Notes under the pieces: generated by a model
What the model saw: only the letters and a program-made list of their open reading frames with translations
What the model was told of the DNA's origin: nothing
The model's database searches: none
Assembly: GCA_001275005.1 (NCBI GenBank)
Contig: JWZX01002895.1
Span: forward strand, 1-23,135
Source of the DNA: Chrysochromulina tobinii
Taxonomy: Eukaryota; Haptophyta; Prymnesiales; Chrysochromulinaceae
Reading direction: 5' to 3'
DNA length: 23,135 nt
Part shown: positions 3,201 through 22,500 of the stretch, one piece after another
Layout of the letters: each line of letters starts with the position of its first letter
Position numbering within the stretch: the stretch's first letter is position 1
Translations under genes and position numbers: made by a program

Positions 3201-4024
3201 TGGAGCTTCCAGTAGCGTCGCCTCGCCTCGTCGATGCCCTGGTACAGCTCGACGAGCTGCACGATGAGCTCGCGGTCCGCTATCGTGCCGCCACGCAAGA
3301 TGCTCAAGATTCGTGGCTGGGCATCCTCCAGCGGCGGCAGCATCTGTGCCAGCCGCTGACGCTCGTTCCCGCTGATGCTGATGCCGCTGCTGCCGCTGCT
3401 GCCGCTGCAGTCTCTGCGGTTTCTGCTGTCTCTGCTGTCTCTGCCACCGCCCGCGCTCTTGCCGACACCTGGGACGGCGCTCTTTCCGCCGCCCGGGATG
3501 TTGGCTCGATTGAGAGCGGCCACGAAATGATTGAGCTGCGCCATGAGCGCATCCACCTTCACCTGGAGGCGTGCGGTGCGTGTCGGGCCGAGCTTGGGCA
3601 CATCGGCAGCTGCGCCCTCGGCGAGCGCGAGGCCAAGCTCATCCGTCTTAATCGACGCAGACGGCTCCTCCTCCGCACGCCGCTCCTCCTCGACCGGCTC
3701 TTCGACATGCAGCGACGACGATGAGAGACGCTCAAGTGCCGAAGCTGCCATATCCCATAGCGAGCCGAAGCCCGACCATGGCGAGTCGCGCGGCGGCCCA
3801 CCCTGCAAAGGTGAGCGTGGGTCCTCGGCATCAATAGGCTGCCGGGACGCGTGGCGCGATGACGTGGGTTGCCTGGCTGGCACGCCCATCGGAGGCGCCG
3901 GCGCCGGTGGCCGCTCCCGCGCATGCTGCTGCTCGCGGTAAAGCGCCTCGAGCTTGGCCTCCGCGGGCGGCCGCGGCGTGTCCTGCACGTTGAAGGCCGG
4001 GGCGGCGCTGGACCGGCCAAACAT
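292..4024 (-). CDS. Rhomboid-family intramembrane serine protease with C-terminal PUB domain
   Basis: Spliced model: exon 1 4024-2222, exon 2 2146-1634, exon 3 1548-292, giving 1,190 residues; the phases agree. The start is the first ATG of the open frame. Residues 1 to about 575 are low-complexity, charged and Ser/Ala-rich, probably cytosolic. The protease follows: TM1 about 583-600, a loop containing MLGPP typical of eukaryotic secretase-type rhomboids, HLLLN (H680, N684, oxyanion side), the GASG nucleophile motif (S732), and the TM6 histidine H785 in MHLGG. The S732 to H680 spacing matches GlpG, so catalysis is expected. After TM6 a linker of 8-residue repeats leads to a PUB-like domain (about 938-1030, motif KYRTVRLTNAAF, then LLRSLGFEYA). 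A TM helix (1075-1097) and a tail with 12 Cys and two N-glycosylation sequons (NQT, NVT) follow. Known: PUB domains bind the p97/VCP tail. Inferred: the PUB domain faces the cytosol and the tail faces the lumen. Confidence 0.88.
775..1053 (-). other. PUB domain coding segment of the rhomboid protein
   Basis: About 93 residues resemble the PUB domain of peptide:N-glycanase and UBXD1. There is a helical run AFELALSTVATLV, then HPEETKYRTVRLTNAAF, where PNGase has NPNDEKYRSIRIGNTAF, then a helix ending in LLRSLGFEY, where PNGase has CLFEMGFEE. The C-terminal LAQCLELIEAAR helix also fits. The match rests on remembered family sequence, not on a search. Confidence 0.8.
1171..1266 (-). repeat. 24-base coding tandem repeat, four units
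   Basis: Units at 1171-1194, 1195-1218, 1219-1242 and 1243-1266 share the plus-strand core gtgggcag..gggaggcgtcg with one to three substitutions each. They encode 8-residue repeats of the type DDASxAAH in the linker between the rhomboid core and the PUB domain. The phase is kept, so copy number could change without breaking the protein. Confidence 0.9.
1549..1633 (-). other. Intron 2 of the rhomboid gene (85 nt), introner-like
   Basis: The donor GTGATTGG and acceptor CCCTCATCAG flank an 85-base intron whose removal is needed to join the two rhomboid frames (NLV-IGLTPWVDNFMH), so it is well supported. The sequence GTGATTGGCCT occurs at the donor (1633), again inside the intron (1608) and immediately after the acceptor (1548). 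The intron is thus bounded by a direct repeat. The inner copy is a possible alternative donor, which would shift the frame. Its last 18 bases are identical to those of intron 1. Confidence 0.9.
2147..2221 (-). other. Intron 1 of the rhomboid gene (75 nt), introner-like
   Basis: The donor GTACGTGG and acceptor CCCTCATCAG are bounded by the direct repeat AGGTACG. The body is a tandem array of about 10-base units (plus strand: gaggccatcc, gaggccatca and variants). Splicing joins TM1 (FIFE) to the loop (VREN). The intron is 75 bases with no in-frame stop, so retention would insert 25 residues rather than truncate. The intron call rests on the consensus ends, the repeat content and the 3' end shared with the certain intron 2. 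Confidence 0.78.
2611..2630. repeat. Two copies of the intron decamer inside a coding exon
   Basis: The plus strand reads gagtgcctcg twice in tandem, preceded by ggcctccct. Both strings also occur in intron 1, but there on the minus strand, so here the element lies in opposite orientation relative to the gene. In this exon it is translated as part of the low-complexity N-terminal tail. Confidence 0.6.
2701..2742 (-). repeat. 21-base coding tandem repeat, two units
   Basis: Two identical 21-base units (2701-2721 and 2722-2742) encode the acidic/basic repeat EERRLDE in the N-terminal tail of the rhomboid protein. A neighbouring 12-base repeat near 2762-2785 encodes GDYL twice. These are in-frame low-complexity expansions. 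Confidence 0.85.
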
Positions 4025-5119
4025 TGCACACGACAATGTCGTGTTAACGTTCACACCACGTCCCTTCTTTTTCAACAGAGAGTTGGTGTCTTCTCGGGTC
4101 GCCGAAGCTTGCGGAACGTACGCAAGCTTCCGGCTCACAGCCGTTTCACACAGTGCTGAACAAGTTGCGCGGCGTAGCGGGCGTGAGCCCGTGTGAACGA
4201 CGGTTTCGGACGTGTGCCTGCATCTCGATCGTGTCCTCTCTCCTCTGCCTCTACACGCACAGCACAGCACAGGAGACACGACCCACACAACAAACGGAAG
4301 CACTGGCAACCGTCACAAACCTGACACGGCCGAGCCGCGAGCCCGCGCCCCGCCCGGGACGACGCGAGGCGACGCGCGATATTAACATATATCGTCAAGC
4401 TTGTAGCTTCAACGGCACACGCATGTCGCATCACGCGGCGCGAGATGCGAGATGTGTGCCGGTGCGCTTTGCCTCTGGTGCACACATCACTCGCGCGTCG
4501 CCTCTGGGCCACCCAATCCACTTGTCGTGTACGCAGCACGTCTGCATGGTTCCGCACCACATGCCAGATCAGCGTCGACCCATGTCGACCCATGCCAACA
4601 CGTCAAATACCCTCTTGTACCTGTTCGGTTCGCGCTCACCCGGCACGCGGCATGCATGTTGAATGCCGCGGATCAGGTTGGGTACCCCACAACACCACGC
4701 CCCTCTCGCCGGATCGGGGTTCCCCACATTCACACATTCCCCACATTCACACCCCTCCCTCCGCTCCCGCTCTCGGAGGACACGAAGGCGAGACGCCCCA
4801 GCCGCCCTCCCCCCACCGCCTCGCCCGGCAGGCCCCCCTCGCTCCCACATTGCCAGCGCCCTTAAAGGGCGCACGTGGCAATGGGAGTCGGCCACCCATG
4901 CATGCACGGAGATGTAGCACGCACGCACGGTTTGTACGTGGCCGTGGTCGCCGCCATGGCAGTGGGGCGGGGCGCACTGAGCTGTCCTACTTTGTAATGA
5001 GCACGAGTTGCTGGCAAGGCCGCACAGTTCGTCACGTCCCAGCCGGTACGCGAGAGCATCCAATGCGAGCACTCTTGCCATGGAGAGGCAAGAATGCAAG
5101 CTCATCAGTGCATGCATGC
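4025..5119. promoter_or_regulatory. Intergenic region, presumed rhomboid promoter and GT25 3' flank
   Basis: About 1.1 kb separates the rhomboid start from the stop of the upstream GT25 gene, both on the minus strand. No coding region with a recognisable domain is seen. Features visible are an AT-rich inverted repeat, gatat-N6-atatc, at 4378-4393, the most AT-rich spot in a GC-rich region; a 16-base direct repeat, ttccccacattcacac, at 4720-4735 and 4737-4752; and a doubled gtcgacccat near 4575. The open frame continues upstream of the rhomboid ATG without another ATG, so the 5' UTR or an upstream exon could extend here. The promoter role is assumed from position only. Confidence 0.4.
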
Positions 5120-6688
5120 TCACTTCTGTACGTCCCACTTGTACACGTTCGTGTGCTTGATGTCGCCCTTGGCGTAAGGGTCGCGCTGCTCAACAAGGCA
5201 GGGGGAGGCGACGACCGCGGTGACGAAGCCCTCGAGCACGAGCTTCGAAATGTAGCAGTCGGTCGGGCAGTCGATCGGCAGGTGCGCGAGCAACTCCTTC
5301 GCGGCGGCTGGCCAAATGATGTACGACGACGTTTGCCAGAGGTACTCGGCCTCGCGCAGCTTCATCACGGGCGGGCCCTCGACGACGACACGGCGCGAGT
5401 CGCGCCACTGCACGACCTCGCATCCCACGTACAGGATGACCGGCGTGTTCTCAACGTCCCAGCACTGCGGAGCGCGCGACAGCGGGCGGAGGCACTGGCG
5501 GTCAGCATGGCCGAGGGCGAGGGTGGCAAGGGCGAAGGTGGCAAGGGCGAGGGTGGCAAGGGCGAGGGTGGCAAGTGGCGAGTGCCAACCAGGCATTTGG
5601 CGGGCGCACGCAAGTGGCGAGCGCCAACCCTCCCCTTGGCCTCCCTCGCCGCCCCGCCACACGCACGCGCGCGAGCACAGCTCCCGCGCACCTGCTCGAC
5701 TGCGTCGATGAGCCGCTGCGTCAGCTCGGGGAACTTGATGCCCGAGCGCTCCCAGAGCACGGCATCGTCCTCAAGGATGAGCATGGGCTTCGACGGGTCG
5801 TTGCGCCGCAAGCACTGCTTCCAGAGCGCGATGTGCGAGCCCGAGCAGCCACGCTCGCCCTTCGACATGTCGTGCAGCGCCGGCAGCGTCTTCTTGTCGT
5901 ACAGGCAGTTGAGCTTCGAGTGCCACTGCCACGTGACGAGCGAATCCTTAACGTCGTCGCCCATCTTGGCCGAGAACCGCTGCCCCTTGAGGCCCTGCGC
6001 CTTCATCTCCGCCTGCATCAGCTTCCTGCGGTCCAGGCGCTTGTCTAGGTTGATGTACTGACAGCTGAAGCCCTGCTCGCCGTTGAACTCGTCCTCCTCC
6101 TCGATCGACATGGGCGAGCCGCGGCCGCTACCGTTGGGCGAGCTGCGGCCGCTCCTCTTCTTCTTCGAAATGCCAGGGAGCGTGATGCGCTCCGGCACTA
6201 CGCACGAGGAGCACACGGGAGAGGGTGAATGGGGTGCACCGCCGAGGGTGGCCAGCGACAGCATGCACGGTCGGCTGTGCGGCGTCACGCAGCGTGCGGG
6301 CGGGCGACGAGGCAGCGGCAGGCTTCAGGGCATCGAAAGGCACAGACTCAGCACGCCGGCGCTTACATTTGTGCAGCAGTGACCTCGCCACCATGTGCTC
6401 ACGCCATGCCTTGAGGCCGTTGAACTGGCCGCCGCAGCTGCAGGTGTAGAGCGCAGAGCGCGGCTTTTCGCCCTCAGATTCACTCAGCACGCACGTTGGC
6501 TTCACCTTTGGCATCGGCTTCCGCTGCGTTCGAGAGCGTGCGGTGGCGCACGAGGTGGTCGGCCGGGGGCTCTGGTCCGGCGTACTGGTGGCTGGTGAGT
6601 GATCACCTCCTGTGGATTCCCGCCGCGTTGCCCAAGACAGCGCGAATTTCTGGGAATCGTGTACAATGTAATTAACCCTGACCCTCAT
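5120..6688 (-). CDS. Glycosyltransferase family 25 protein with N-terminal Cys/His motif
   Basis: Spliced model: exon 1 6688-6367, exon 2 6197-5692, exon 3 5464-5120, 390 residues. The GT25 core is clear: YINLDKR (155-161), GERGCSGSHIALW (221-233), the metal/sugar-nucleotide acidic motif LEDDA (EDDA 250-253), then WDV, ILYVGCE and the C-terminal helices to the stop. GT25 enzymes transfer hexoses, galactose in the LPS and procollagen members; the substrate cannot be told here. Exon 1 holds C83-x-C85-x12-H98-x7-H106, a C2H2-like but atypical zinc-finger spacing, after a Ser/Thr/Pro-rich start. I see no signal peptide or membrane anchor, unusual for an ER/Golgi GT25. Exon 1 is joined by a GTAAGC donor in the right phase, but it could belong to a separate transcript. 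An ATG at residue 59 is an alternative start. Confidence 0.82.
5465..5691 (-). other. Intron 2 of the GT25 gene (about 227 nt)
   Basis: The donor GTGCGCGG follows codon 276 and the acceptor CTCCGCAG at 5465 restores the GT25 frame at WDV. A second acceptor at 5495 (CCGCCAG) would add ten residues in the same frame. The conserved domain runs across the junction with no gap, which supports splicing. The intron holds the 15-base tandem repeat listed separately. Confidence 0.85.
5516..5575. repeat. 15-base tandem repeat in GT25 intron, four units
   Basis: Four units of ggcgagggtggcaag stand head to tail; the second unit has one substitution. The repeat is entirely intronic. On the transcribed strand it is pyrimidine-rich and lies just upstream of the acceptors. 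Confidence 0.95.
6198..6366 (-). other. Intron 1 of the GT25 gene (169 nt), predicted
   Basis: A near-consensus donor, AAAT|GTAAGC, and the acceptor GTGCGTAG, preceded by a pyrimidine-rich tract, share phase 1. Removal joins the zinc-finger-like exon to the exon carrying the GT25 core. Without it the GT25 frame has no ATG start farther upstream than 6264. This is a prediction from splice signals and phase. Confidence 0.65.
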
Positions 6689-7008: not shown

Positions 7009-10000
7009 ATGGCGATGAATGAACAGCCCGAGGACGGTCCATCCCGTCTAGAACTGCCTGCTTTCGTGACGCACGGCCCCAAAGGGAACGAAGCGAAGTA
7101 CATCTCGACGCTTTACGCGCTCGCCCGAAGCCTCGACGATGAGCTGTGTTCTGAGCAGGCTTGGGTGGCAAAGCGCCTCGTAAGCTTGCGCCTTACACAC
7201 TCCACCCCGTATTTCGAGCTGAGTTGTGTTGACGCCGCCGTGCAATTCTCCTGAGCGGCGCACCTTTGACTCTTACCCTGTGACTCGTACCCCGTGACTG
7301 TACCCGCAGCTGCCTTTCGGCGATGAGGTCCAGCCTGGAGACGGCAAGTCCCAGAACACGAACCGCATTAAGAAGGCGAGGGCAAAGCGCATAGAGCGGC
7401 TGCGCTATCAGGTCAGCACGTACTGCCAGAGAGCACTCAACGGTTCCGCCGCTTCGGCCAGCCCTTCACGTCTCGAGCAGTCGGCTACGGACTTCTCCAG
7501 TAGCTTTGTCATGGTGGAGAACCACAGCTTCGGCTCCGGCGAGCTGCAGTTGCGGGAGCCGAGCTTGGCGAGTGTCATCGGTCCGGACCCCGTCGCTCTA
7601 GACTCGGAGCATCTCGCCAAGCAACTCGAGACCATGCTCGATGGCTTCACTAGACCAGACAAGATGATCGGCTCGATGATCAGCCTCGGCAGCTTCTCAT
7701 GCGCCTCAAGCCCGGCGAGCATGGAGCTGGACCAGGCGCTGCCGTTTCTTGATGAGCTGTCCGAGCTCGAAGCCATCGCAAGTCAGTTGCAAGCTGCGGA
7801 CTTCGACAGCTTCGAGACTAAGGTGACTGCACCTCTCGCCCCTCTCGCCCCCCTCTCGCCCCCCTCTCGCCCCCCTCTCGCCCCCAACTCTGTGCTCAGC
7901 ACAACCCTGCGATGGAGCCCGGCCACATTCACTAGCGCCAACGTCCGAGTGCCTCTGCTCGTGCTCCCACTCAGTGCACTCTTGTCGCTTGCCCTCAGCT
8001 CCAATCGGTGGACTCGACGGCCTTCTGCCATTTGCCGCCGCCTCGTCCGGGCTCGGTGTTGACCCACACGATGCTGCCTACTCCCGTGGCCAACATGCTC
8101 AAGGAGCTCATGAAGCCGACGCTCAATCCGGGAACGCGCTCCCTGACGATGCTGCAAGAGCTCGGTGTGCTTGCCGTCGGCTTCGTTGGTGTAGAGGATC
8201 ACGAGCGCGTCCTCTTCATGCCCGGTGCGCCCGAGAGTCGCCGGCTCGACATGAAGAAGAAGCTGCGTATCATGATGGCGGAATATGAATGCGAGCAAGA
8301 GGAAAGGAACGAGGTGGCGAAGCCCGGCTGCACTGCACTCGTCGTTTACTTCGACACCGAAGAGGGCGTCGAACCGACGCCCGAGGTCGGCAAGGTGCTC
8401 AACACCAACTTTGCGCTCATCATGCTCTCGCAGGCGCGAGATAAGGGAATACTACTTGAGGCTACGCACATGCAGATGATCGAGGACCACGAGCGCCGCC
8501 GCGACAAGCTCGAGCTCGCTGAAGACACTCTCGCAAGATCCTACGAGCTCGTTGGCAGCAGCGCCTCGTGGATGTCGTCGCTGGGGGTGTCTTTGAATCC
8601 ATCCACACCGGCCGGCTCGCGCCAGCTGCCGACCTCCAATGTGTGCCCGCAACCGTCGACGACGACGAGCCTTCTCGAGGTGATGGCCAGCACTCTCCAG
8701 GAGGGAGAGATCTCGCCGTCTTACCCCTGGCAGGGCACGACCTCGGAGGTGTTAGGGCCACCGTCGGAGACGACGAGCCTGCGCGAGGAGAATGCCGGCG
8801 CCCTCAAACTGACCAAGCAGCCTCAACTACTGAGCGTGCCAACGCCTCCACCTGTCCAGCCCAAGACTCGGGCGCTGGCTGCGGGCCCTACCCGTGATGT
8901 TGATGATGAAGACGAGGAGGGCTATACCATGCTCGCTCGGCAGCCGGTGGCTCGGCAGATGGAGACCAAGCGCTCCGCGCCGCCCCTCCCGCGGAGGATC
9001 GAAGACAGCCGCTCGACCGGCGACGCCTTCGAGGAGCTCACCTACCCGCACGCGCCGTCGACGCAGCTGGTTGCAGAGCTCGACGGCTTGCGCCATCACA
9101 CGCGGTCGCGCCTGCCAGCCCCTTCATCGGCCATGGCCCTCAACGAGCATCTCAAGCGCGTCGGCGCAGAGATTGACGGCGAGCAACCCTTCGAGATCAT
9201 CGGCGAGAACATCGAGGATGACGAAGAGAAACCGATCCTCGACAAGGTGATCAAGGAGCACCACGATGAGCACCACCGCTACGAGAAGTGGGCGGGTGTC
9301 GCGCATGAGCGCTGGGTCGAGTACCTACATGGGGGGCGCCTGCTGCTCAACGACGAGACCATCACGACCGTCCAGGAATGCATGACGAACGGCCAGAAGC
9401 TCGAGTTCACGGGCTCGACGGACGGCTGTCCGTACGGTGTGATCGCTCTGCACGTGCATGGCTCGGGCACCTCTGCAAATCGGAAGCGTGTTGCAGAGGT
9501 TCTGGTCAAGTGGCTGCTCGATGTCGGCGACGCTTTCGTCTTCTATGGCAAGATGTTGCGCGACTGGGTCCGCTGGGACCACGTGGCGCCTAACGTCCAG
9601 ACCTGGGACGAGCTGATGGCCTACTTGCGCGACTCGTTCGCCTACCTCGAGTACACCGCCGCTGACTGGCTGCTATACGTCGCGGTCTCACACGTCTTTG
9701 GGCCCGTGCTCATCTTCTCTGGCCGCCTCTCGCGTGCCATGCGCTTCGTAGCTTCCGACGCGCGACGCTCGGAGCACCCGACTGACAGCGAAATAGCCAA
9801 CCTGAATCTGCGTGGCTACGTTGATGCAGCACAGCTGCCAGCTTGGAGCGAGACGTGGCTCCGACTCGGCATGCTCGAAAATGGCCACTTCGTGCGCTGT
9901 CGCTCGAAGCAGCTCAAGTCGGAGCTCATGCTGCAGATGTGCAACGCGCGTGATGCCGAGCTGCGGAAGCAGCTCAGTGTGGAGGTGCCACACGCGGTGA

Positions 10001-13000
10001 TCTTCCAGGGACCCTCGAAGGCGGGCAAATCCACAATCATGAACGCGCTGGCGCGCAAGGTGCTCTACGACTCGGCTCCTCCCACGCCGAAAAAGGGCGA
10101 GAAGAAGGGAAGCAAGGTGCAGCCCGAGCTCGCCGTGCTCGGCGCGCCAGTGCCGGGCTCGGAGATTGGCCGCGGCATGGAGTCGGAGACGCTGCTCGTC
10201 AACTCGATGGTCATCCACACGAATGACGATGACACGCCGAAGTTGCAGCTGCTCGACACACCCGGCATGTTCGACTCGCGTGGACCGCTCATCGAGGTTG
10301 TCAACGCCGTCTCGATCGCCAAGTGCATGGCTCGCTTCAAGTCCCTTCGGATCGTTGTCATGGTGCGCGAGGAGGCCCTCAATGGCACGGGTGAGGGCTT
10401 TGCCAACACGGCCGAGGCAATGAGCAAGTTGTTCTCGATGAATGGCGGTGGCAGCGCCTCGGCCAAGAAGAATGTGCTGCTCTGGATCAACCCTCACAAG
10501 CCCGAGGTGGACTACGGAGAAAAGGGTATCATCGAAGAGATCAAGAAGATGAATGCCGCACGCCCGGAGATCCGCGACTTCCTTCGGATGATTGAGGGCC
10601 AGTATAGCTCGCGCAAGGTCGTACACATGCTCGAATACACTCCGGAGACGGCACAGGGCGATGAGCGCGAAAAGATTGTGCGCGCGCGGCGACAACGCTA
10701 TCCCGACTCCGACCCCGACGCGCCGGTCACCAAGGCCGTCTTCGACATCGATGGTCTCATCATGCAGCTTGTCAACCTCAACCCGATGCAAAACCCTGCG
10801 GAGAAGTGCGGCCTGCCCCTCACCGAGAAGGCCATCGCCGAGATTGTTCGGCAGGCCAACGAGCTGCATGACTATGTGTCGCTTCGCTCCGAGCTGCACG
10901 ACTACAGGAGCCTACTGAAGTACCTCGATGTGCTGCAAGCTCTTTGTACGCACATGCAGGCCGGCTCCAGGTCCACGCAAGGCCAGAACCGGTTCGATTC
11001 GACGTATCAGACATCGTTGGCGACCGTTACGGAACGCCTTCAGTCAGTGTGCGGCAAGATTCGTATGGAGACGCTTTGCCTGCCGATCGAGCAGCCAGTA
11101 GCCTTCAAGGCGACAGACCTCAATGACATCTGCTTCGCCATGCGAGCGGCCGCCGCTGCGGCCGTGCTCGAGCCCCACCTGAGCCGCCTTCTCGGCTCGT
11201 CTTGGAAGGAACTTGGCGTCGAGACGTGCTGCGGAATCGTAGCCAAGCAGGTGCAGTCGGCAAGCGAGGTCAGCCGCAAGCTGCTTTGCGACCATTTCAT
11301 CACCGGATCGTCAGGCCTCCAGGCGGCTTACAACGTCTTTGGCCAGCAGATCAAGCTGATGCTCAATAAGCTGCAGCAGATGAAGGAGTATTTCAGCCTC
11401 GAGGCTGAGGTGAACGCCGAGCTTACTCTCGAGGCGAGTGCGAACTTTCAGCGTATCGCAACGGAGGCTGGCAAAAACCTCGACCTGCTCTATAAGACGC
11501 TGCACCAGGCAGTCGACACACAAACTAAGGCTGCCGCTGCGCACATCACGCGTGGGCTCGACGAGGCCGCGCGTGCAGTATCGCAATACCTGAAGTCTCT
11601 GTGCATCAAGAATGACTCGGCGCTTGATTTGGTGTCGTCGGCAGCGCCAAGCGTCAGCCCGTTTGACGCCGCTGCCAACGCGCTCGACGTGATCAAGACT
11701 GCCGAGGAGTCGCTCGTCGGCCTTGTCGAAGAGATCCGCGGCGCGTATTCGTCGTCACGCAGCCATGTCATCTCGGTGGTCGAGAAGAAGTGCCAGGAGA
11801 CGTGCTCGCTCATTGAGCAGGTCAAGGTGGACGCATGCACTCGGCAGCCGCTGGCAGAAGAGCTCGAGCTGATGCTTGCGTCGCTGCTCTTCCTGCTGCA
11901 CTCGCGCTCCTCGAGCCTGCGCAAGCATTGCACCAGCGGAGGCATGTCCGATGGTGCCATCGATGCCCTTGCCCGTCTCGACGCATGCTATGAGGAGCCT
12001 GTCGCTAAGGTCGTCGAGTGGCACGCCGAGCTTGTCAAGGGCGTGCTTGAGGGTGCGAAGCGCAGCAACGACTTCAACTTTGTCAAGAATCTGAGCGACT
12101 TCCGGTCCCATGTTGAGCTCTCAACTGAACTGGCCAAGCTGGCAGCAGTGGAGAAGATTCAGTCCGATCAACGTGCCACGCGACCGTGCCCTAAGTGGGG
12201 TGCCCTTCAAGCAAGTGCCAATGACCTCAGCCGTAAGATTGAGGTCGCGCTGCAGACTTTCGGCAATAGTGTCTCTTCGCGGCTGCATGAGCACAGCGTC
12301 ACGATCAACAACGCTCATCTCGATGTGGTCGAGTCATACGACTACAAGGAGCACGCAAGAGATCTACTGGTCCTCGAGAACGCGCGGTGGTGCGATGCCA
12401 TTCTGGCCGAGCCCACCATCGAAGCTGCCATCCTCAACGTGTGGCAGGCCTTCGAGAAGCACATGAAGCGGCTCGCGAAAGGCGAGGACGGCGCCATTGA
12501 GCTGCTGCACAAGGGCAACTATAAGGACGCACGCACGCTCCTCGTGCAAATCCACGGCATGGAAGTGCTCTTCGATGAGGCGCTCGTCGCCGATGTTGAA
12601 GTGGCACAGCGTGTCAAGGAGATGCACGACGAGGCGCACAAAGTGGCCAATGACGTGATTGCCACCAAGTGCGACGAGGCTCGTACCAGGGTGCTCGAGC
12701 GCCCTTGCCCGACCGGCAAGCGTGAGCGATGGGACTGGTGGATGGTCATCGGGGTGCAGGACGCAAATTTCACCGACGCGTTGTGGCACCTCAACTCGCT
12801 TCTCGACCTGGCGAACTGGCTTATCACGGCGTCGAAGGGGCACAATCGCCTCCGTGGCTGGCTTGACCTTGAGAGGCTTGAGAAAGTACATATTGATTGC
12901 GCGAACCGTGCCAAAGCTCTTATCCATCGGCTGCACTCACGCGTTCAGTCATTCTTCGCAGCCGTCGGGTCGTGCCGATCGCAAGCAATAGACGCGGCCG

Positions 13001-16000
13001 TCCTCGAGTTGACGGGCGATCAGATGTGTGATCAGATATGTGCGACCGCAGAGATGGGCTCGATGGGCTCGGAGGGCACAGCGTCTGATGAGTTGTCCGG
13101 CATGAAGTCTGCTAAGGTTGCGTGCCGTGAGGTCAAGGATATCCTCATGCTTCTGTCACGACCTGGAACGTACTCGGCTCTCTTTGCTGCTGCTGCGCAT
13201 GGCGAGGCGGGCTCCGACTTTACGGCGGCCCATGGCATCCATGACCTGGAGCGTCTCTTCCAGGCCACCTACATGGAGTGCCAGATCAACTTTGGAGATG
13301 AGGAGACGGAGCCTGTTGCGCGGCAGGGGGCTCTCAACATCTACTTGGAGTTCGATCGTTCTCTACCGTTTGAAAAGATTTTCGAGGGCTTCAAGAAGAC
13401 ATTCCAGAGCCACTATCAACTGCTCGTGAGTGCCCACCAACAGGCCAAGAAGGGAGAGAAGAATGCCCTGCATGCCGCCTTTGCGTCATACGAGTTCAAT
13501 GAGGACACGTACCGCATGATGGACAACCTGCGCAAGTCGAAGGTGGCTGACCCCAAGTCGCGAGTGGCATACGATGAGGCTTGCAGCAAGCTGTCTGGCT
13601 CCGTGCGCTCACTGCTTGAGTACGTCTCGATGAATTTCTCCCATCTCAAGCACTCAGATCAGAGCTTCCGCGCCCAAGATCATCTCGTCAAGCCATGGAA
13701 CCAACTCCAGGCAGCACGCACACACGTCGAGTTCCTCAATGAAGTCCCGGGCTCCACGCAGATCAGTCTCGATGGTGAGCTTGCTCAGATGGTCCAGAGG
13801 TTCGAGGCAGTGTTCAAGGATGAAGTTTTACAGCCGTTCGCCAAGATGTTTGACATGGGCGACTACCTGAAAGCGGAGGGCGATACCGCCTTTGGGCTCA
13901 AGCGTGTGCACATCCTCACAAGCCAGATCCAAGCGCACGGCGGCCAGCTCGGCCAGATAGCGAAAGCGGCGCTCAATGAAGAGCGTGAGCGCCAGAAGCT
14001 GGCGCTCCAGAGCCTCCATCTTCTGCCATTTGAGAGGAAGTTCGAGCTGCCGCAAGACGAGGAGGATACTACGTTTCTCAACGAGAGACTTCGTGTCGTC
14101 CATGGGTTCCTGATCAAGAGCTTCGAGCGCATCGCACAGTTGTGCCAATGCAAGGGCGACTTTGTTCTCGTTCTCGAATACAAGGCAGCACACGACAACA
14201 TCCTCAAGGAGGTGGGCTCGTTCTTGCAGAGCGAGTTCGGGCCTCTCTTCAGGGATGACTACCTCAACATGAGGATGATGCACGTCAAGTATCTCGAACA
14301 AGTGCTCGACCAGATGGGCATCGGAGGCTACGCACCTGACGCAGCCAAATTGCTCAATTGCAGCCTCGCGAAGTCTAACATCGAGATGTTCCTGAAGCTA
14401 ACTGACCACCAAGATCAGGAGTCATTTTCTTCGGTGTCGCCAGGCCAGCAGGCCGAGATCATTCGCCGCACGTCGCCGCAAAGCAAATCGTACGTCACGA
14501 TCGTCCAAGAGTTTGGCGTGGCGCATAAGAATGCAGTTCAGCGCGCCGACAGCCTGCTGCGCAAAGCTTCCTCTGCTTCCGAAGTGCTTCCGGGCGAACT
14601 GGAGGAAGTATTTGCGGAGGTGCGCACTCGGGCGGAGTGTGCGCATGAGCTCAAGGGCATCAAGCTCGATAGGAAGGTTGTCGCTGATCTCGAGGTGACC
14701 CTTCGTACCTGCCGGGCCAATCTCGAGGGTTGGCTGACTACCAACCAGCAGAGCCCTCTGCTGTTCTCGAGCGGGGACCCATCAACATCGGCTGTTCGGG
14801 ACACGCAGCTGCTTCGCACCATCCATACGTACAAGTCGCTCGTAAAGCTTGCGCCTGTCAAGACTCATCTGTCGTCCGGCGCCATGCACAGCCCGCCGGC
14901 AGCGCCCCCGGTGACTAAGGAACCTATGGTCGACAAACCCATCGACGAGGATGGGCCCGTGAGTCATGAGGGTGGGTTCTCCTCGATCCTCATGGGTGGT
15001 GTCAAGGATGTGGTGTCAAGGATGGGTGGTGTCCTGGGTGGTGACTTTCTGCAGGGCAATCACGGTTCTGCAGGGCAAACACGGGCAAACAAGAACCAAG
15101 CTAAGGAGATGAAGAACCCGAGCGCCGCCGCCGCGCTGACGCCTGATGCCCTGGAGGTATGTCCCAACGAGGCCGTTGCCAGCTCCCCGGCGGGATCCGA
15201 CAGCTCCCCACAGCTCCGTTCATACCCCTACAGCTCCCCGGCGGGATCCACGCAGCGCTCATCTGCAGATGGCTTTACAACTGGGCCAAGGTCCGCTGGT
15301 GCACAGGTCATGGAGCTGCTTCGCGCCAAGCTGAATGAGACGGTCAAGCAGTGGGCCGATGCGCCCGAGGCTGCGCAGCACATTGGCCTCAAGCACCAAG
15401 CGCTGCTTCGCCTGCAACGCTGGGAGCCGGATGAGAACGCCGGCAATGGCCCAACCGGCCCCGTCTCCATCTTCGACGCTGCTGCTGAGCTCGAAGTGGC
15501 GCTGATCGAGGAGGGTGCCCTGGCAGCCAGCCAGCAAGTGACTATTCGCCCGGTCCCGCACGATGTGCGTGTCTCCAAGACGTGTGATGAGATCATGCAA
15601 CTGCTCTTCAAGGCCAAGGCGAGTATCGAATTTGTCGCCCAGTTCGATCCCGATGGGAACCAGCCGCCGATCGATCCCAAGCCCTTTGAGATGATCCTCT
15701 CTCGCGAGATGGCTGAGCTCTGCCAACTTGTGGACCACCGGTTCATGCATGACATTGAGTCTCTGAAGGAAGAGGTCGCCAAGTGGGCCCAAGGTATCTT
15801 GAGTGATGTCACCAAGCTTCTCGCTGAGCGAAAGAACAAGATCGCGGACCGTTGCCTGAGAACGTGGACGTATCTTGAGCCGCTCACGTTGTTGGGGGCT
15901 CTCAAGCACCTGCCAGGCTCTGCCGCGTTCGATGCACAGCTGCAGGCCCACGCTTCCAAGCTGGGTCAGCTGGCCAAGATGGCTGTGCAGTCGAGCGATA

Positions 16001-18939
16001 AGAAGGACGGCTGGGAAAAGGCCGTCACCATGCCTCTGCTGCACCTCGCCAAGTTTGGCTCGGACATCTCACGAGCGGCTGCCTTCTCAAACGAAGCACT
16101 GGCCGAGGCCCTGAGCGCCGCCGAAGCCAAGTTTGGCGCTCACGGCATGCAGACGCTCGCGGCAGAGCTGCGCGAGCGCGAGCCGGCACTTGGGAATGAG
16201 GTCATCTCATCTTCGGACGCATTCATTGCGGTGGCGGTCGCTGACTTCAACCAGAAGACGCAGCGCGATATCAGCGTCGTCAAGCAGCTTTACGCCGAAA
16301 AGAACAAGGACGCCGAGAATAGCGTTTGGCGCAAGTACGACGAGTTCGAGCGGGAGTACAATCGTCTTCTTCGGCATTGCACTGACGGTCTTGAGCATAT
16401 GGACGACCCGCTCGCCTTCCTCGTGGAACAAGCCAAGAAGAAAGCTAGGGAGGACAAGGGCATCATCTACGAGAGTCAGGAGCACATTCCCAAGGTGCTC
16501 GCTGCCATCTTTGCGTGGTGGTCCATCGACTTCCTAGAGAAGCTGCGCAAGCGCCACCCCCACCTCAAAGCCGAACCGAAGAAGCTGCGTCGTGCCAACA
16601 ACGGGCAGGTCGTGTGTATCCTCCGTTTGCTCGGATGCTCAGCGGAGTACACTGGAATCGGCTCCAAGTTCAAGAACCACCTAGCAGAGGTGCCGACTGG
16701 GGAGGGCAAGTCGGTTGTCATCGGCGTTTTGGCTACGACGCTGGCGCTGTACGGCTTCCACGTTGACTGCGTCTGCTACTCGTCGATGCTCTCGAGCCGT
16801 GACCGCGACGACTTTATGCAACTGTTCAAAGCTTTTGGCCTCACGGACCGCATTCGCTACGGGACGTTTGATACGCTTTGCGAGGAGCTCCTCACCGAGC
16901 AGTATGGCGATCTTCGCCAGGCCGCGCGGGACTTCATCACGACTGGCAAGTCGACTCGGAGCGCACTCGCCGCTCCACCCAAGCGCGCGCTCGTCATCGA
17001 TGAGGTGGACGTCTTTTGCTCTGAGGCCTTCTTTGGCGGTGCATACTGCCCGGCGCTCACCCTCCAGAATGATGAGATCGCCGAGCTCATGAAGCATATC
17101 TGGGCGAGCCGCTCCGCCGTTCAACCCGGCATGGATCAAGCATTCGATCTGTCTGCAATCCAGCAGCACCCGACGTACCAGGCAGTGCTCAACAGCGGCA
17201 TCCTCGCGGATGGGAACGAGTGGCTCCTCGAACGTGCCGTGCGCGAGATGGACAAGGCTGCGCGCGCCTACTCCCCTAACGTGCGCGAGCATATCGTACG
17301 CGGTGGCAAGATCCTCTACAAGATCGAGGGGCGTGACGAGTATGGGCCCTGGGCGTTCGACTACGAGACGAATGCCGAGTACCTCGCGGCGTACGACAGC
17401 GGCAACCTCGATCTGCAGCAGCTCAAGGAGGGCCTCTGCATCTACGTGCGCTGTGGTGAGTTCTCATTCGCTGCGCTTCCGTCTATGTTTGAGCACATCC
17501 TCGGCGTCACCGGCACGCTAGACAGCGAGAGGCTGCCGCCGCAGATGCACGAAGTCCTCAAGACGGAGATCAAGATTGAGAAGTTCACCTACTGCCCCTC
17601 GATGTACCACGCGCAGAAGCGCGACTTCAAGCCGGACAACCCCGCGTACGTCCAGCTTGCAAAGGATGTCGATGAGCACTACAACCTCATTGTCGACGAG
17701 ATCGACAGCCGGCTGTCGCCAACGATTGAGATGGAAGGCCAGCGCTCGGTCATCGTCTTCTTTGCGAGCGCGGAGGAGCTGCACAAGTTCCGAGACTCGA
17801 GCTACTTTGGCAAGTTCCGCGACAAGGCGAAAGTGCTCACCGAGCTCACGGCCTCCCGTCGCGATGACCGCGATAACATCATCAGGACCGCGACTCGGCA
17901 GGGCGCCGTAACGCTCGCTTCCCGCATGTACGGCCGCGGCACCGACTTCAAGATCTTCGACGACCGCGTGGAGAAGGCGGGTGGCATGCATGTGCTTCAA
18001 ACGTTCTTCTCCCGCGATCTGAGTGAAGAGGAGCAGATCAAAGGCCGCTGTGCTCGCCAAGGCAACAAAGGCTCATACTCGTTGGTGCTCCTCAGTGCAT
18101 CGGCCGCCAAGGACTTCGACCTGACTATCGAGACGGTGCAGGGCTGGCAGCCAGCCGAGGTCTACGCCAAACTCTCTCAACTGCGCGCCAACTCCGGCAC
18201 TGCGGAGGTGAAGCCCCTGCGCGAGATGGCTGCCATGCGGCTCAAGGAGCACGGTATGCTCGCCGACTCCCTTCAGAACTTCCACGCCGGCAAGAATAAA
18301 GGAGCGTTTGGTAAGCTGATGAAGCGCTACAACTTGCCCGGCGGAATGGCTGTCGGTCCGAACGGCATGCACGTCATCTTCTGCCTCGACGAGAGCGGCT
18401 CGATGTCGTGGTGCCTTCCGTTTCAAAGGTCTCCGTGGAACGAGCTCATGGACGCCGTCGCCGTCTTTTGGAATCAGTCGGCGGACCAGCCGGGACCACC
18501 AATGTTCGTCTCGGTCGTTCAGTTTGGCAGTGACGCTCGTGTCACGCAGCAGATGGTCCCACTCCAGGGCAAGGTGCCGAAACTTGAACCTAATTGGAGC
18601 GGCACGTCTTTCCTACCTGCCGTGGAGGCTGCGGCCAACCTGGTCAATAATGTGGCGGGCCCCGCCAATGGTTACACTGCCGTCGTCATCTTCATGTCCG
18701 ACGGTGCAGCAAGCGACTCGGCACCTGCGGCCCGCGTGCTTGGGAGCCTCGCCCAGACGCACGGCAACCAGTTCTCGAGTTATACCGTTGGCTTTGGCTC
18801 CAGTGCCCCGCGGACGCTGGAGCAGATGGCCTTTGCGAACGGCGTGCTGGAGAAGAACAACTACCGCGCGGCCAGTGTGGGCAATCTCGCCGAGGCCTTC
18901 TCGGCAGTCGCGAAGAGCATCGCGCCCGGCCGCCTCTGA
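7009..18939 (+). CDS. Giant GTPase / SecA-type motor / vWA-domain protein
   Basis: Spliced model: exon 1 7009-7179, exon 2 7310-7822, exon 3 7999-18939, about 3,874 residues; exon 3 alone is 10.9 kb of unbroken frame. The start is ATG ATGGCGATGAAT with an acidic N-terminus (MAMNEQPED), so no plastid transit or signal peptide is seen. Domains: a P-loop GTPase (GPSKAGKST 899-907, DTPG 981-984, degenerate G4 NPHK 1059-1062); a mostly helical region of about 2,000 residues with a Pro/Ser/Gly-rich linker near 2540-2650; a SecA-like motor (PTGEGKS 3127-3133, DEVD 3229-3232, GVTGT 3397-3401, GRGTD 3540-3544, GRCARQG 3577-3583); and a C-terminal vWA domain with complete MIDAS (DESGS 3692-3696, T3764, D3796). 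Known: SecA uses these motifs for ATP-driven protein movement. Inferred: a cytosolic ATP- and GTP-dependent machine acting on protein; its substrate is unknown. I recall SecA-domain/vWA proteins annotated in other protists but none characterised. Confidence 0.92.
7180..7309 (+). other. Intron 1 of the giant gene (130 nt)
   Basis: The donor CTC|GTAAGC and acceptor TACCCGCAG|CTG are both phase 0 and join two frames that otherwise stop (VAKRL to LPFGDE). The 3' half holds an imperfect tandem repeat of about 15 bases, of the type gtgactcgtacccc, running into the acceptor. Confidence 0.88.
7823..7998 (+). other. Intron 2 of the giant gene (176 nt)
   Basis: The donor AAG|GTGACT and acceptor TTGCCCTCAG|CTC are both phase 0 and join FETK to LQSVD. 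The frame of exon 3 is closed by a TAG at 7933-7935 upstream, so a splice is needed. The intron contains a pyrimidine-rich 10 to 11-base tandem repeat (ctctcgcccc type, five units, about 7833-7885). Confidence 0.88.
7833..7885 (+). repeat. Pyrimidine-rich tandem repeat in intron 2 of the giant gene
   Basis: About five units of ctctcgcccc(c) stand head to tail, with small changes in the length of the C run. The repeat begins ten bases after the donor. Confidence 0.9.
9982..10554 (+). other. P-loop GTPase domain of the giant protein
   Basis: Residues about 890-1080. The beta-strand HAVIFQ leads into G1 GPSKAGKST; G3 is LLDTPGMF; the strand RIVVMV follows; and KNVLLWINPHK occupies the place of G4, where NKxD would be expected. 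The order suggests a translation-factor-class GTPase of the AIG1/septin/dynamin-like kind, but the weak G4 leaves nucleotide specificity open. Confidence 0.75.
10960..16480 (+). other. Long helical middle region of the giant protein
   Basis: Roughly residues 1216 to 3056 lack a domain I can name. The sequence is rich in Ala, Leu, Glu, Lys and Gln with recurring amphipathic patterns, consistent with helical bundles or a solenoid. Few prolines occur except in the linker at about 14935-15300. That linker contains short DNA duplications (agctccccggcgggatcc at 15181 and 15232; ttctgcagggcaa twice near 15047-15078). A GTATGT donor-like site at 15157 makes a small in-frame intron conceivable (acceptor at 15213, 57 nt). 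Confidence 0.6.
16486..18144 (+). other. SecA-type DEAD/helicase motor of the giant protein
   Basis: Residues about 3058-3610. Motifs in order: a Q-rich entry (NNGQVVCILRLLG), Walker A PTGEGKS (SecA normally TGEGKT), YGTFDTLCEELL at the place of SecA's YGT motif, Walker B VIDEVD, ILGVTGTL (SecA AGMTGT), MYGRGTDFKI, GGMHVLQT and the arginine-finger motif IKGRCARQGNKGS (SecA RGRSGRQGDPGS). The 165 residues between Walker B and GVTGT are close to the spacing that holds the preprotein-crosslinking domain in bacterial SecA. Confidence 0.93.
18361..18936 (+). other. C-terminal von Willebrand factor A domain of the giant protein
   Basis: Residues 3683-3874. HVIFCLDESGSMS gives the first metal-ion site loop, SGTSF the threonine and FMSDGAASDS the aspartate, so the MIDAS site is intact. 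The central strands (FVSVVQFG, TAVVIFMSDG, YTVGFGS) fit the fold. The protein ends 78 residues after the MIDAS aspartate. Confidence 0.93.
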
Positions 18940-19573: not shown

Positions 19574-22500
19574 TCAAGCCGGCACCTCGAACGGTAAGTC
19601 GTGCTCGAGGTCGAGCCCGAAGGCCCCCTCGCTCTCGGGCGCCGCCTCGACGGCGCCCACGACGGCGCCCCTCGAGTGCTCGCGCGCGACCGCTCTCAAC
19701 AGCTCGACGTAGCCGCGTGGCGGCAGCGCCTCGGCAAGGCGAGGGGCGCCGCGAAGAACGCCGAGGCACACCGTCGCCGCCTGCGCCTTGAGCATGCCTC
19801 GCAGCACGAGGAGTGTCGCGCGCCCATTCGCGCCCGGGACGGCGCCGGGGAGGGGTCGCGGTGCGCCCGGGACGGCGCCGGGGAGGGGTCGCGGTGCGCC
19901 CGGGACGGCGCCGCGACCCGCCTGCTCGCCCTCGGCGTCGCTGGACTCGCCGCGCTTGCCGCCGCCGCCGCCCGCCGCGGCTGCCACGCTCACGCCGCCG
20001 TGGGCGGCAGTGCGCCGCCTGCGCCGCCGTCGGCGGGCGTCGTCGAGATGTTGAGCGAGACGCAGCATCGCTTGCCACTGCTGCAGCCTCAGCCGCGCGC
20101 CGAGTTGAGCAAGGGCTCTGCCGAGGCACCCGTCGCGCCATCCTGTGGGGAAACCGATGAGTGCGGTCGCCACCAGAGCGAGTGCGGGCTGTGCCGCGCC
20201 CAGCGAACGCATCGCCGCGGCCGCCGCCTCTCGAGACGCCACGTCACGTGCTATTACCTCGCCCTCGCCGCGAGCGGCGGCGGCGCCGCACTGGGCCCTT
20301 TCGCCGTCGTATGCACCGCCATACGCGACGTAGTCGGCCTCGTCATACGCGACGTATTCCGCTTCATTGATGGCGAGTGGGCGTGGCGTCGGCAGCGGCT
20401 GCGATGCCAGCCCGTTGGCGTGCAGTGCGCGGCTGAGCCCTTCATACCAAGTCAAGGGAGTTGCCAAATTAGGAAGCTCCCCATCGAAAAGCGCCGCCAC
20501 CGTCGCCTTCGCCTTCGCCGCGGGCGCAACGGCCGCGTCCCCTCCCGTAGCGAGGCGCCGTGGTGAGCGCATGCATGCAAGGACGTCAGGCGCAACGGCC
20601 GCGTCCCCTCCCGCCGCCGCCGGAGCCGCGCAGTCCATCGCCGCCGCGGCCATGCCTGCCACGTCTGCCCTGGCCTCGTCCGCCGCCTCGATCGAGATCT
20701 CGCGCTCGGAGATCTCGAGCTCGGCGATCTCGATCTCGCGCACCACTGCCACCTCGCGCGCGCTCGACACGGCGCGGCGGCCGGTGGCGGCGGGCGAGCG
20801 CCGCGCCTCGAGCGCCGTGTCGGGCGAGCGCTGCGCCTCGAGTCGGCGCTGCTCGACACGGCGCTGCAGCTGCTGCAGCACGTGGCTGCTCACCGCCGCG
20901 GGCGCAAAGTCCGCAACGTCCGCAGGCGACGGCGGCGCAACGTCCGCTACGTCCGCAGGCGACGGCAGTTGGAGGCTGGTGGCGACAGTTGCCGTGGCCG
21001 CAGAGGTGGCTACAGTGGCCGTGGCGTCCTCGGGCACACCGACGGGCGCGACGTCCCCCGTCGTGCCCGTCGCGCCAGTGGCAGCGGCGGCGCTATCCTC
21101 GGCTGCGCTGTCGTACAGAGGCGGCTCCGCGGCAGCCTCGTCGAGCGCCGCGTCGAGCGCCGCGTCTTTTGGGTCGCAAGGCTTCTCCGTCTCCTCCGCG
21201 CCACATAAGTCTTCGGGGCGCACGGGCAGCTGCACATGGGAGAGGCGAGGCGCCGTCCCGTGCACGACGGCCAACTGAAGCGACCAGCGCGCGTCGTGCC
21301 GAGCAGCGTCACGCTGCTCGGCCTCGACTAGCCCGAGGCATGCGACGCTGCGGACCGGCGCCTCAAGCGTCACGGCCGCGACCACGGCGACCTGCTGCAC
21401 ATCGACGAGGCACACGCACCCATCGTGGGCGCCGTCTTGGGCGCCCGTGCCCTCGCCCGCGGAGGTCTCCCCCTCGGCATGCAAGTGCCCAGTACGGCGC
21501 TCGGCGTGCAAGTGCCCAGTACGGCGCTCGGCATGCACTTGCCCAGCACGGCGCTCGCCCACGGAGGTCTCTCCCCAAGAAAGAAGCAGCCGCAGACCGC
21601 TCACCACACGCAGCCGCCCGAGTGCGATGGCGTCGTGCTGGGCGAGTGCTATGGCGTCCGCGACGGCGGCGTCGGCGGCGTCGGCGGCGACGGCGGCGAC
21701 GGCGGCGACGGCGGCGTCGGCAGAGGTGGCAGGCGGCGCGGAGAGGCGCAGTGTGGAGAGCACGTTACCCACAGCATCCACAAGCCACAGCCGCCGCCCC
21801 GGCCGCGCCGCCACCAGTATCGCCTCGGGGCTTACCGGTAGCCTGCCTTCGACGAAGCACGCCCCGAAGGCGCCGTTGCGCTTCGCTCTGCCAATCGGGT
21901 GTGGCGGAGGCAGAGAGAGCGGGGGCAGGAGGAGGGCGGCGGCGGCAGCGGCGGCGGTCACGGCCAGGCTCGCGGCAGCCTCCGCCGCGCGCGCCGCCGC
22001 GGTACCGGTAGCCGACGCGGCGACGTGGCTGACCGGTACCGGTACGTGGCTGACCGGTACCGGTACGTGGCTGACCGGTACCGGTACGTGGCTGACCCTG
22101 GCCGCTGAAGACGCAGCCGAGAGCGTCGTCCCGAGCACCCTCGGTCCGGGCAGGTTCAGCAGCAGAGAGCGAGCCCACGTCGACACGAGCACTCGGTCGT
22201 TGCGCACGTCGAGCTGTACGATCGGCGAGCCTTCGGCCGGCAGCAGCGCCAAGGGAGACTGCATCGATCCTCGGCACGTGCCGTCAGGTGCGCCCGAGGT
22301 TACGAGCGACGCGTCGGCAAGTTTTCCGTCGTCTGCGTTGGGCACGAGCCACAACCAGACGGCACCGTCCTCATCGCCACCGAGCAGCCGCAGCGAAGTG
22401 GCACTCAGCCGCCAAGCTAAGCTGCGCGCTGGGCACGTGAGCCGCGCCCGCAGCAAGCAAACGAGCACCACGCCGCCAAGCTGACCCGTGCGCGTCGCCA

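Follow-up and report, generated by a model that had tools for sequence, protein, structure and literature searches.

The gene at positions 7009-18939 (+) of a 23,135-nucleotide stretch of Chrysochromulina tobinii DNA (contig JWZX01002895.1; hereafter the window) is predicted to encode a giant protein whose parts are, in this order, a GTPase with a P-loop, a motor of the SecA type and, at the C-terminus, a von Willebrand factor A (vWA) domain. Sequence comparisons together with structural models establish the predicted identity, order and spacing of these domains, the conservation of their motifs and the position of the motor in a clade of its own; they also establish that the modelled motor has neither the wing nor the two-helix finger of SecA and carries the vWA domain in their place. 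The protein belongs to a large family that is apparently undescribed in the open-access literature searched. The titles and abstract starts of open-licence PubMed Central articles contained no description of a eukaryotic GTPase-SecA-vWA family; the author of an earlier note on this DNA knew of no characterised member.

A SecA-type motor with a vWA domain in place of the wing and finger

SecA is the motor for protein export via SecY. The earlier note had read all core SecA ATPase motifs in the protein, and Walker A, DEVD, GxTGT, GRGTD and QxxGRxxRQG are indeed present and near-invariant in the family; the Pfam search of the motor that it had asked for returned SecA_DEAD (E 3.9e-8) and P-loop_SecA (E 1.2e-7), both over cut-off. 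An insert lies between Walker B and GxTGT, at the position of the preprotein-binding PPXD domain of SecA. Our survey of motif spacing covered 95 proteins and 39 open frames from eleven loci, many of the frames motorless, and in the 99 family rows with motifs found the distance from Walker B to GxTGT has a median of 160 residues (153-203), compared with 162-185 in 13 of 16 canonical SecA rows and 272-289 in the other three. In structure alignments the match extends beyond the bare motor: the model superposes 557 residues with 3jv2 at a root-mean-square deviation (rmsd) of 7.8, as against 378 residues with the motor-only structure 3bxz.

The region after motif VI sets the family apart. Canonical SecA continues for 265-362 residues beyond this motif (16 rows), a stretch that presumably comprises the scaffold, the wing and the two-helix finger. 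Of the 73 family rows whose tail is long enough, 60 have the vWA motif, starting 113-143 residues beyond motif VI; neither the helical wing domain nor the two-helix finger was found in the family, and the model has one long helix running straight into the vWA domain. Without wing and finger the family lacks what engages SecY, consistent with action outside the Sec translocon. The window motor resembles bacterial and plastid SecA in both nucleotide-binding domains with all core motifs, in the insert at the PPXD position and, in the model, in the single long helix after the motor, whereas it lacks the wing, the two-helix finger and the SecA C-tail, is preceded by the GTPase and about 3,000 residues, is followed by the vWA domain and falls in a separate clade. 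As for the vWA domain itself, the metal site was earlier described as intact, and judged by sequence the DxSxS, Thr and Asp residues expected to form it are all in place.

The upstream GTPase is a recurrent part of the family

The TRAFAC GTPase features G1, switch I Thr and DxxG are all present in the window protein. Its Pfam match to MMR_HSR1 is under cut-off (E 0.015), and we nevertheless regard the GTPase as firm because the pair of G1 and G3 motifs recurs in the family and the AlphaFold model has a P-loop GTPase fold (mean pLDDT, the predicted local distance difference test, 83). Among the 62 family proteins in which 1,900 or more residues precede the motor, 52 have the pair far upstream of it and 10 do not, where shuffles lead one to expect 0.04; the distance from the pair to the motor Walker A has a median of 1,966 residues (1,285-2,252). 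The description of an intact P-loop GTPase entry in the earlier note is thus borne out for G1 and G3 and fails for G4, which reads WINPHKP here and, in the majority of the aligned relatives, FTK or FTH; the [NT]KxD signature was not found. In structure comparison the model ties by Z score among GIMAP (GIMAP2/7), Era, Toc34 and HflX, and therefore no GTPase subfamily is claimed; the Foldseek list also includes GBP1. The fold, G1 and G3 are shared with GTPases of the GIMAP, Toc34 and Era types, from which the window GTPase differs by its non-canonical G4. Some 1,900 residues separate the GTPase from the motor. Searches of this long region gave no Pfam family over cut-off (Tim29 at E 0.0013 and others below), and a profile search of the PDB, based on the haptophyte alignment A5, recovered nothing at E 0.01 besides SecA and the GTPase (HflX).

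The giant family forms a clade separate from canonical SecA

For phylogenetic analysis we cropped 195 SecA stretches and, after removing 26 copies that overlapped or were truncated, kept 169, from which rows were hand-picked by named origin and spread for a first tree of 119 rows, a second of 67 and a third of 41. The separate clade of protist SecA-vWA proteins that the earlier note had named as support for its claim was recovered at 100/100 in the 67- and 41-row trees, and in the latter canonical SecA forms another clade, also at 100/100. We define the family as P0001-P0095, chosen by score; 53 of these 95 proteins were placed in the first or second tree and all 53 fall inside the family clade.

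The genome's own secA (L001, 872 codons, contig C1598) groups with bacterial housekeeping SecA, and a second canonical SecA, split in exons, is found on contig C820. Forcing the plastid-type L001 into the giant family was rejected (delta log-likelihood (lnL) 55, approximately unbiased (AU) p 1.3e-4, in a test that did not include the nuclear plastid SecA of C820 or cyanobacterial SecA), and the statement that the motor is not plastid SecA agrees with this result. The G+C content is 0.344 around L001 and 0.354 in a neighbouring stretch of C1598. This AT-rich contig (L001, L094) looks plastid-genome-like, as by eye it reads like atpB, psbB and cbbX and has five transfer RNA genes.

One gene of three exons

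The spliced model at 7009-18939 (+) has three exons and a single, terminal stop, and encodes a protein of 429 kDa and exactly 3,874 residues, the figure given approximately before. The introns, of 130 and 176 bases, are both GT-AG and both phase 0, and the plus-strand frame at 7936-18939 is open over 3,667 codons. Each exon has a counterpart in the environmental relative P0004 (3,778 residues): exon 1 is identical at 19 of 43 positions, with a tblastn match of P0004 residues 2-43 at E 1e-6, exon 2 at 49 of 141 aligned residues and exon 3, compared at its start only, at 79 of 206. P0002 (3,706 residues) aligns with P0001 over its full length at 67% identity, rising to 77% over the last 828 residues. 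Since P0004 aligns to all three exons and both relatives are of similar length, we conclude that this is one gene, conserved in the environment. That exon 3 is a single gene rather than several is further upheld by other species in which one protein has the order GTPase-SecA. An example is the Chrysotila protein P0012, whose sources include MMETSP transcriptomes and which has this order without a vWA domain. The N-terminus was rightly called acidic (computed isoelectric point (pI) 4.87 over the first 60 residues), and on the Kyte-Doolittle scale three stretches of 19 residues have means just above 1.6 (maximum 1.65). The features of the gene are given in Table 1.

Table 1. Positions in the window of the exons, predicted domains and motifs of the giant gene
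Feature	Position	Strand	Basis or remark
Exon 1, acidic N-terminus	7009..7179	+	57 codons; spliced model and tblastn to P0004
Exon 2	7310..7822	+	171 codons; flanked by phase 0 GT-AG introns
Exon 3	7999..18939	+	3,646 codons and stop; single frame without interruption
TRAFAC-type P-loop GTPase domain	9982..10794	+	
G1 / Walker A, GPSKAGKS	10009..10032	+	G and K of GK invariant in 32/32 aligned rows
G3, DTPG	10255..10266	+	D, P and G invariant in 32/32 aligned rows
Middle region, about 1,770 residues	11036..16332	+	
SecA-type motor, both nucleotide-binding domains and the insert between	16570..18123	+	
Motor Walker A, GEGKS	16699..16713	+	G, G, K and S invariant in 31/31 rows
Walker B, DEVD	16999..17010	+	invariant in 31/31 rows
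Insert at the SecA PPXD (preprotein-binding) position	17020..17502	+	Walker B to GxTGT spacing
Motor motif GVTGT	17503..17517	+	sequence
Motor motif GRGTD	17932..17946	+	sequence
Motor motif VI, QIKGRCARQG	18034..18063	+	sequence
Single long helix at the SecA helical scaffold position	18151..18285	+	model residues 607-651 (45 residues)
vWA domain	18361..18936	+	Pfam VWA, E 1.5e-8, over cut-off
MIDAS motif, DESGSM	18388..18405	+	downstream: Thr of WSGTSF, Asp of FMSDG

Further frames noted in the window lie on the minus strand. Those at 292-1578 (-), which has a rhomboid domain (E 1.5e-23), and at 1565-4309 (-), which has a PUB domain (E 2e-15), are possibly one gene; 5365-6288 (-) matches glycosyltransferase family 25 (E 1.8e-17), and a frame of 1,093 codons at 19574-22855 (-) matches an HPS5-type beta-propeller (E 9.2e-18) and perhaps encodes a lysosome-related trafficking protein.

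Distribution of the family and a J-domain sister clade

The protein searches were limited to candidates with the most words in common with the query, so the counts are lower bounds: the C-terminal query matched at least 107 proteins at E <= 1e-5, and a second search, with the piece alone, at least 41 shorter proteins at E <= 1e-10. Named members come from the haptophytes Chrysotila and Emiliania and, from the second search, Calcidiscus; the diatoms Nitzschia, Pseudo-nitzschia and Epithemia; the ciliates Tetrahymena and Blepharisma; Pelomyxa; the green alga Cymbomonas; and the rotifers Adineta, Rotaria and Brachionus. Other members lie elsewhere in the same genome, on C1914 and C2182, with partial ones on C309 and C1190. 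A weak SecA_DEAD match (41.8 bits) was also noted at C1978:8845-9273 (L005), where a frame of 806 residues matches Escherichia coli SecA at 19 bits. Among viral contigs, the SecA-vWA profile gave 130 pattern-matching stretches of which none was confirmed as a relative, and a search with plastid-type SecA gave no match.

The J-domain label PF00226 is carried by 14 proteins of the C-terminal search, 11 of which have HPD 429-456 residues before the motor Walker A, while three have no HPD; in P0042, the protein for which the location of HPD was checked, the Pfam DnaJ match (E 6.5e-9) surrounds it. These J-domain proteins are a sister clade of the family, with a paralog in this genome, L093 (C2182:17501-27400), which has DnaJ (E 7.3e-7), HPD 459 residues before Walker A, a SecA motor and a VWA_4-type vWA domain, and a P-loop in a separate upstream frame. 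The environmental member P0053 has an N-terminal ubiquitin-like domain (residues 16-76), of interest because the MIDAS domain of midasin binds ubiquitin-like domains, and one Pelomyxa member has a C-terminal kinase. Taken as partner domains, J, ubiquitin-like and kinase domains point to protein handling.

Family members on bacterial contigs

The term eukaryotic, used for the machine in the earlier note, fits its wide occurrence in protists and rotifers and is too narrow in that the family is also present on bacterial contigs. A prokaryote scan with the family profile, one genome per species, gave 46 loci, 44 of which were aligned (L056 and L057 were left out), and nine of them (L015-L023) fall inside the family clade. 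L015 (from a Legionellales metagenome-assembled genome, MAG), L016 (Gammaproteobacteria MAG) and L017 (Chlamydiae MAG) each consist of one frame longer than 3,000 codons with a P-loop, a motor and a vWA-like motif, and all three match Pfam SecA_DEAD. The motif scan found no DTPG-type motif in L017, and the GTPase Pfam match of L015 is just under cut-off. With the three whole proteins no Pfam VWA match was obtained at E 0.05, and the tails alone gave sub-cut-off VWA_2 matches for L015 (E 0.0096) and L017 (E 0.07) and none for L016; evidence for their vWA domain is thus the D.[ST]GSM motif only, 114-130 residues after motif VI.

Eukaryotic contamination was considered as the source of the bacterial members and rejected for five of the nine loci, which have bacterial-type neighbours by Pfam: the DNA polymerase III alpha C-terminus and an HI0933-like protein (L015), GGDEF-EAL (L016), RNase E/G (L019), DNA polymerase III beta and a RecF/SMC-type protein (L020) and an NhaA-type Na+/H+ antiporter (L023). 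L018 lies beside ThiC and a GST domain, types that occur in eukaryotes too, L017 has one kinase-like neighbour and one without a Pfam match, and L021 and L022 are on short contigs. Two genes from the giant gene of L015, at 12802-15132 (-), we noted an ankyrin-repeat protein with a PARP domain. The nine loci do not form one clade (delta lnL 311, AU p 5e-76). In the 67-row tree five belong to an early branch together with three environmental rows, and the other four (L015, L016, L017 and L023) are placed among mainly eukaryotic rows; pulling these four out is marginally rejected (AU p 0.043), and grouping L015 with the other three is not rejected (AU p 0.34).

SecA-like proteins of Amoebophilaceae, Cardinium, Rickettsiales and some animals fall outside the family clade. 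Several of these lineages are known as intracellular. Like the family, these are large proteins with a SecA motor, many of them in host-associated organisms, and motif scans of P0096-P0108 and, as far as scanned, L024-L058 found neither the GTPase P-loop nor the vWA pattern. The animal sequences P0097, P0100, P0105, P0108, P0145 and P0146 are from axolotl, fish, Daphnia, nematode and mosquitoes; the first four are placed with SecA-like proteins of intracellular bacteria in the 119-row tree.

A proposed polypeptide-pulling remodeller and its rivals

We propose that the giant protein may be a Sec-independent, GTPase-gated remodeller that pulls polypeptides by a midasin-like logic, a reading based on sequence, models and analogy that we hold to be about evenly balanced between right and wrong. 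The protein would work in the cytosol, where the earlier note had also put it, and without SecY; its acidic start and the lack of a strong membrane span suggest a cytosolic location. The GTPase would arm the machine at a surface or on a complex, serving as a switch or for assembly, and the vWA domain would hold on to an acidic group of a client or of an adaptor, much as midasin/Rea1 grips ligands with its MIDAS. The SecA motor would then close around an unfolded segment of the client and pull by ATP hydrolysis, leading to extraction or unfolding, and in the J-domain clade the unfolded chain may be passed to Hsp70. Midasin (Rea1, Mdn1) has six AAA+ modules and no GTPase; the window protein, unlike it, has a SecA-type motor, and its AAA labels in Pfam are weak, single and below cut-off. 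Midasin is still the closest working analogy, being giant and motor-driven, with a long linker and a client-gripping MIDAS vWA domain that binds ubiquitin-like domains (excerpts of PMC11603028 and PMC6624252), and the clamp of SecA and its movement of polypeptide are treated in excerpts of PMC3685266 and PMC6599042.

Several observations weigh against this proposal. Profile comparison of the insert alone with canonical PPXD was not significant (hhalign E 0.11), nor was that of the tail after motif VI with the canonical tail (E 0.068), so the clamp and the scaffold helix are assigned from size, place and the model only; superpositions on whole SecA exceed an rmsd of 5 in many rows. The two-helix finger of SecA is thought to act on the chain, and it is missing from the family motor. 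The vWA domain is not universal, since 13 of the 73 long-tailed family rows have no D.[ST]GSM and eight further rows end 96-123 residues after motif VI, which leaves no room for it. The non-canonical G4 weakens the case for guanine specificity. Of the three hydrophobic stretches, two lie in the motor directly after Walker A and one upstream of the GTPase; they leave some room for membrane association. By Pfam, the window's own protein has no J domain.

The main rival is that the family consists of NTPases of host-microbe conflict, in which a GIMAP- or GBP-like switch, the motor and the vWA domain serve cell-autonomous immunity in protists and rotifers and the copies of host-associated bacteria are turned against the host. 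In such a system, too, the motor may pull protein, in the service of defence or counter-defence. This we find possible, if on the unlikely side. It would suit the patchy, multi-copy distribution and the bacterial presence (nine loci within the clade that are not one clade), the ankyrin-PARP gene near L015, and the tie of the GTPase model with GIMAP2/7 and the presence of GBP1 in its Foldseek list. It also has parallels in Amoebophilus effectors with SecA-like and GIMAP-type GTPase domains (excerpts of PMC3482391) and in the MoxR-vWA ternary conflict systems, which likewise couple an NTP-driven remodeller to a vWA domain, yet use AAA+ MoxR and separate genes (PMC8195603). However, the J domains suggest general proteostasis, and PADLOC, run on three proteins, gave as its sole match at E 1e-3 a weak hit of LeoBC to the window GTPase (E 6.5e-6, 23.5 bits).

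The other explanations carry less weight. A repurposed SecA/superfamily 2 core that acts on nucleic acid or ribonucleoprotein is improbable; to our knowledge nucleic-acid motors have no PPXD-type insert at the PPXD position. We give very little credence to the idea that the protein is a variant of plastid SecA and supplies a Sec translocon in the thylakoid or envelope: against it stand the AU rejection of the grouping with L001, in the scope given above, the missing wing and finger, the acidic N-terminus and the members in rotifers, ciliates and Pelomyxa, organisms that have no plastids. Least credible of all is an annotation artefact, with exon 3 being several genes or a misassembly. The analysis does rest on one genome assembly, but independent relatives of similar length (P0002 and P0004) and the GTPase-SecA order of the Chrysotila protein with its MMETSP source speak against such an artefact.

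Returning to the polypeptide-pulling remodeller, a broader picture can be drawn more tentatively, and we lean somewhat against rather than towards it: a cytosolic, Sec-independent class of SecA may be common to eukaryotes and the bacteria that live with them, acting as a GTPase-armed, MIDAS-guided threading motor that extracts or unfolds clients, hands them to Hsp70 in some lineages and has passed between hosts and bacteria more than once. If true, the eukaryotic cytosol would contain an engine for threading proteins that is neither AAA+ nor Hsp70. Members in rotifers, ciliates, diatoms and haptophytes make this testable in cultured species, and those on contigs of host-associated bacterial lineages link the family to host-symbiont biology.
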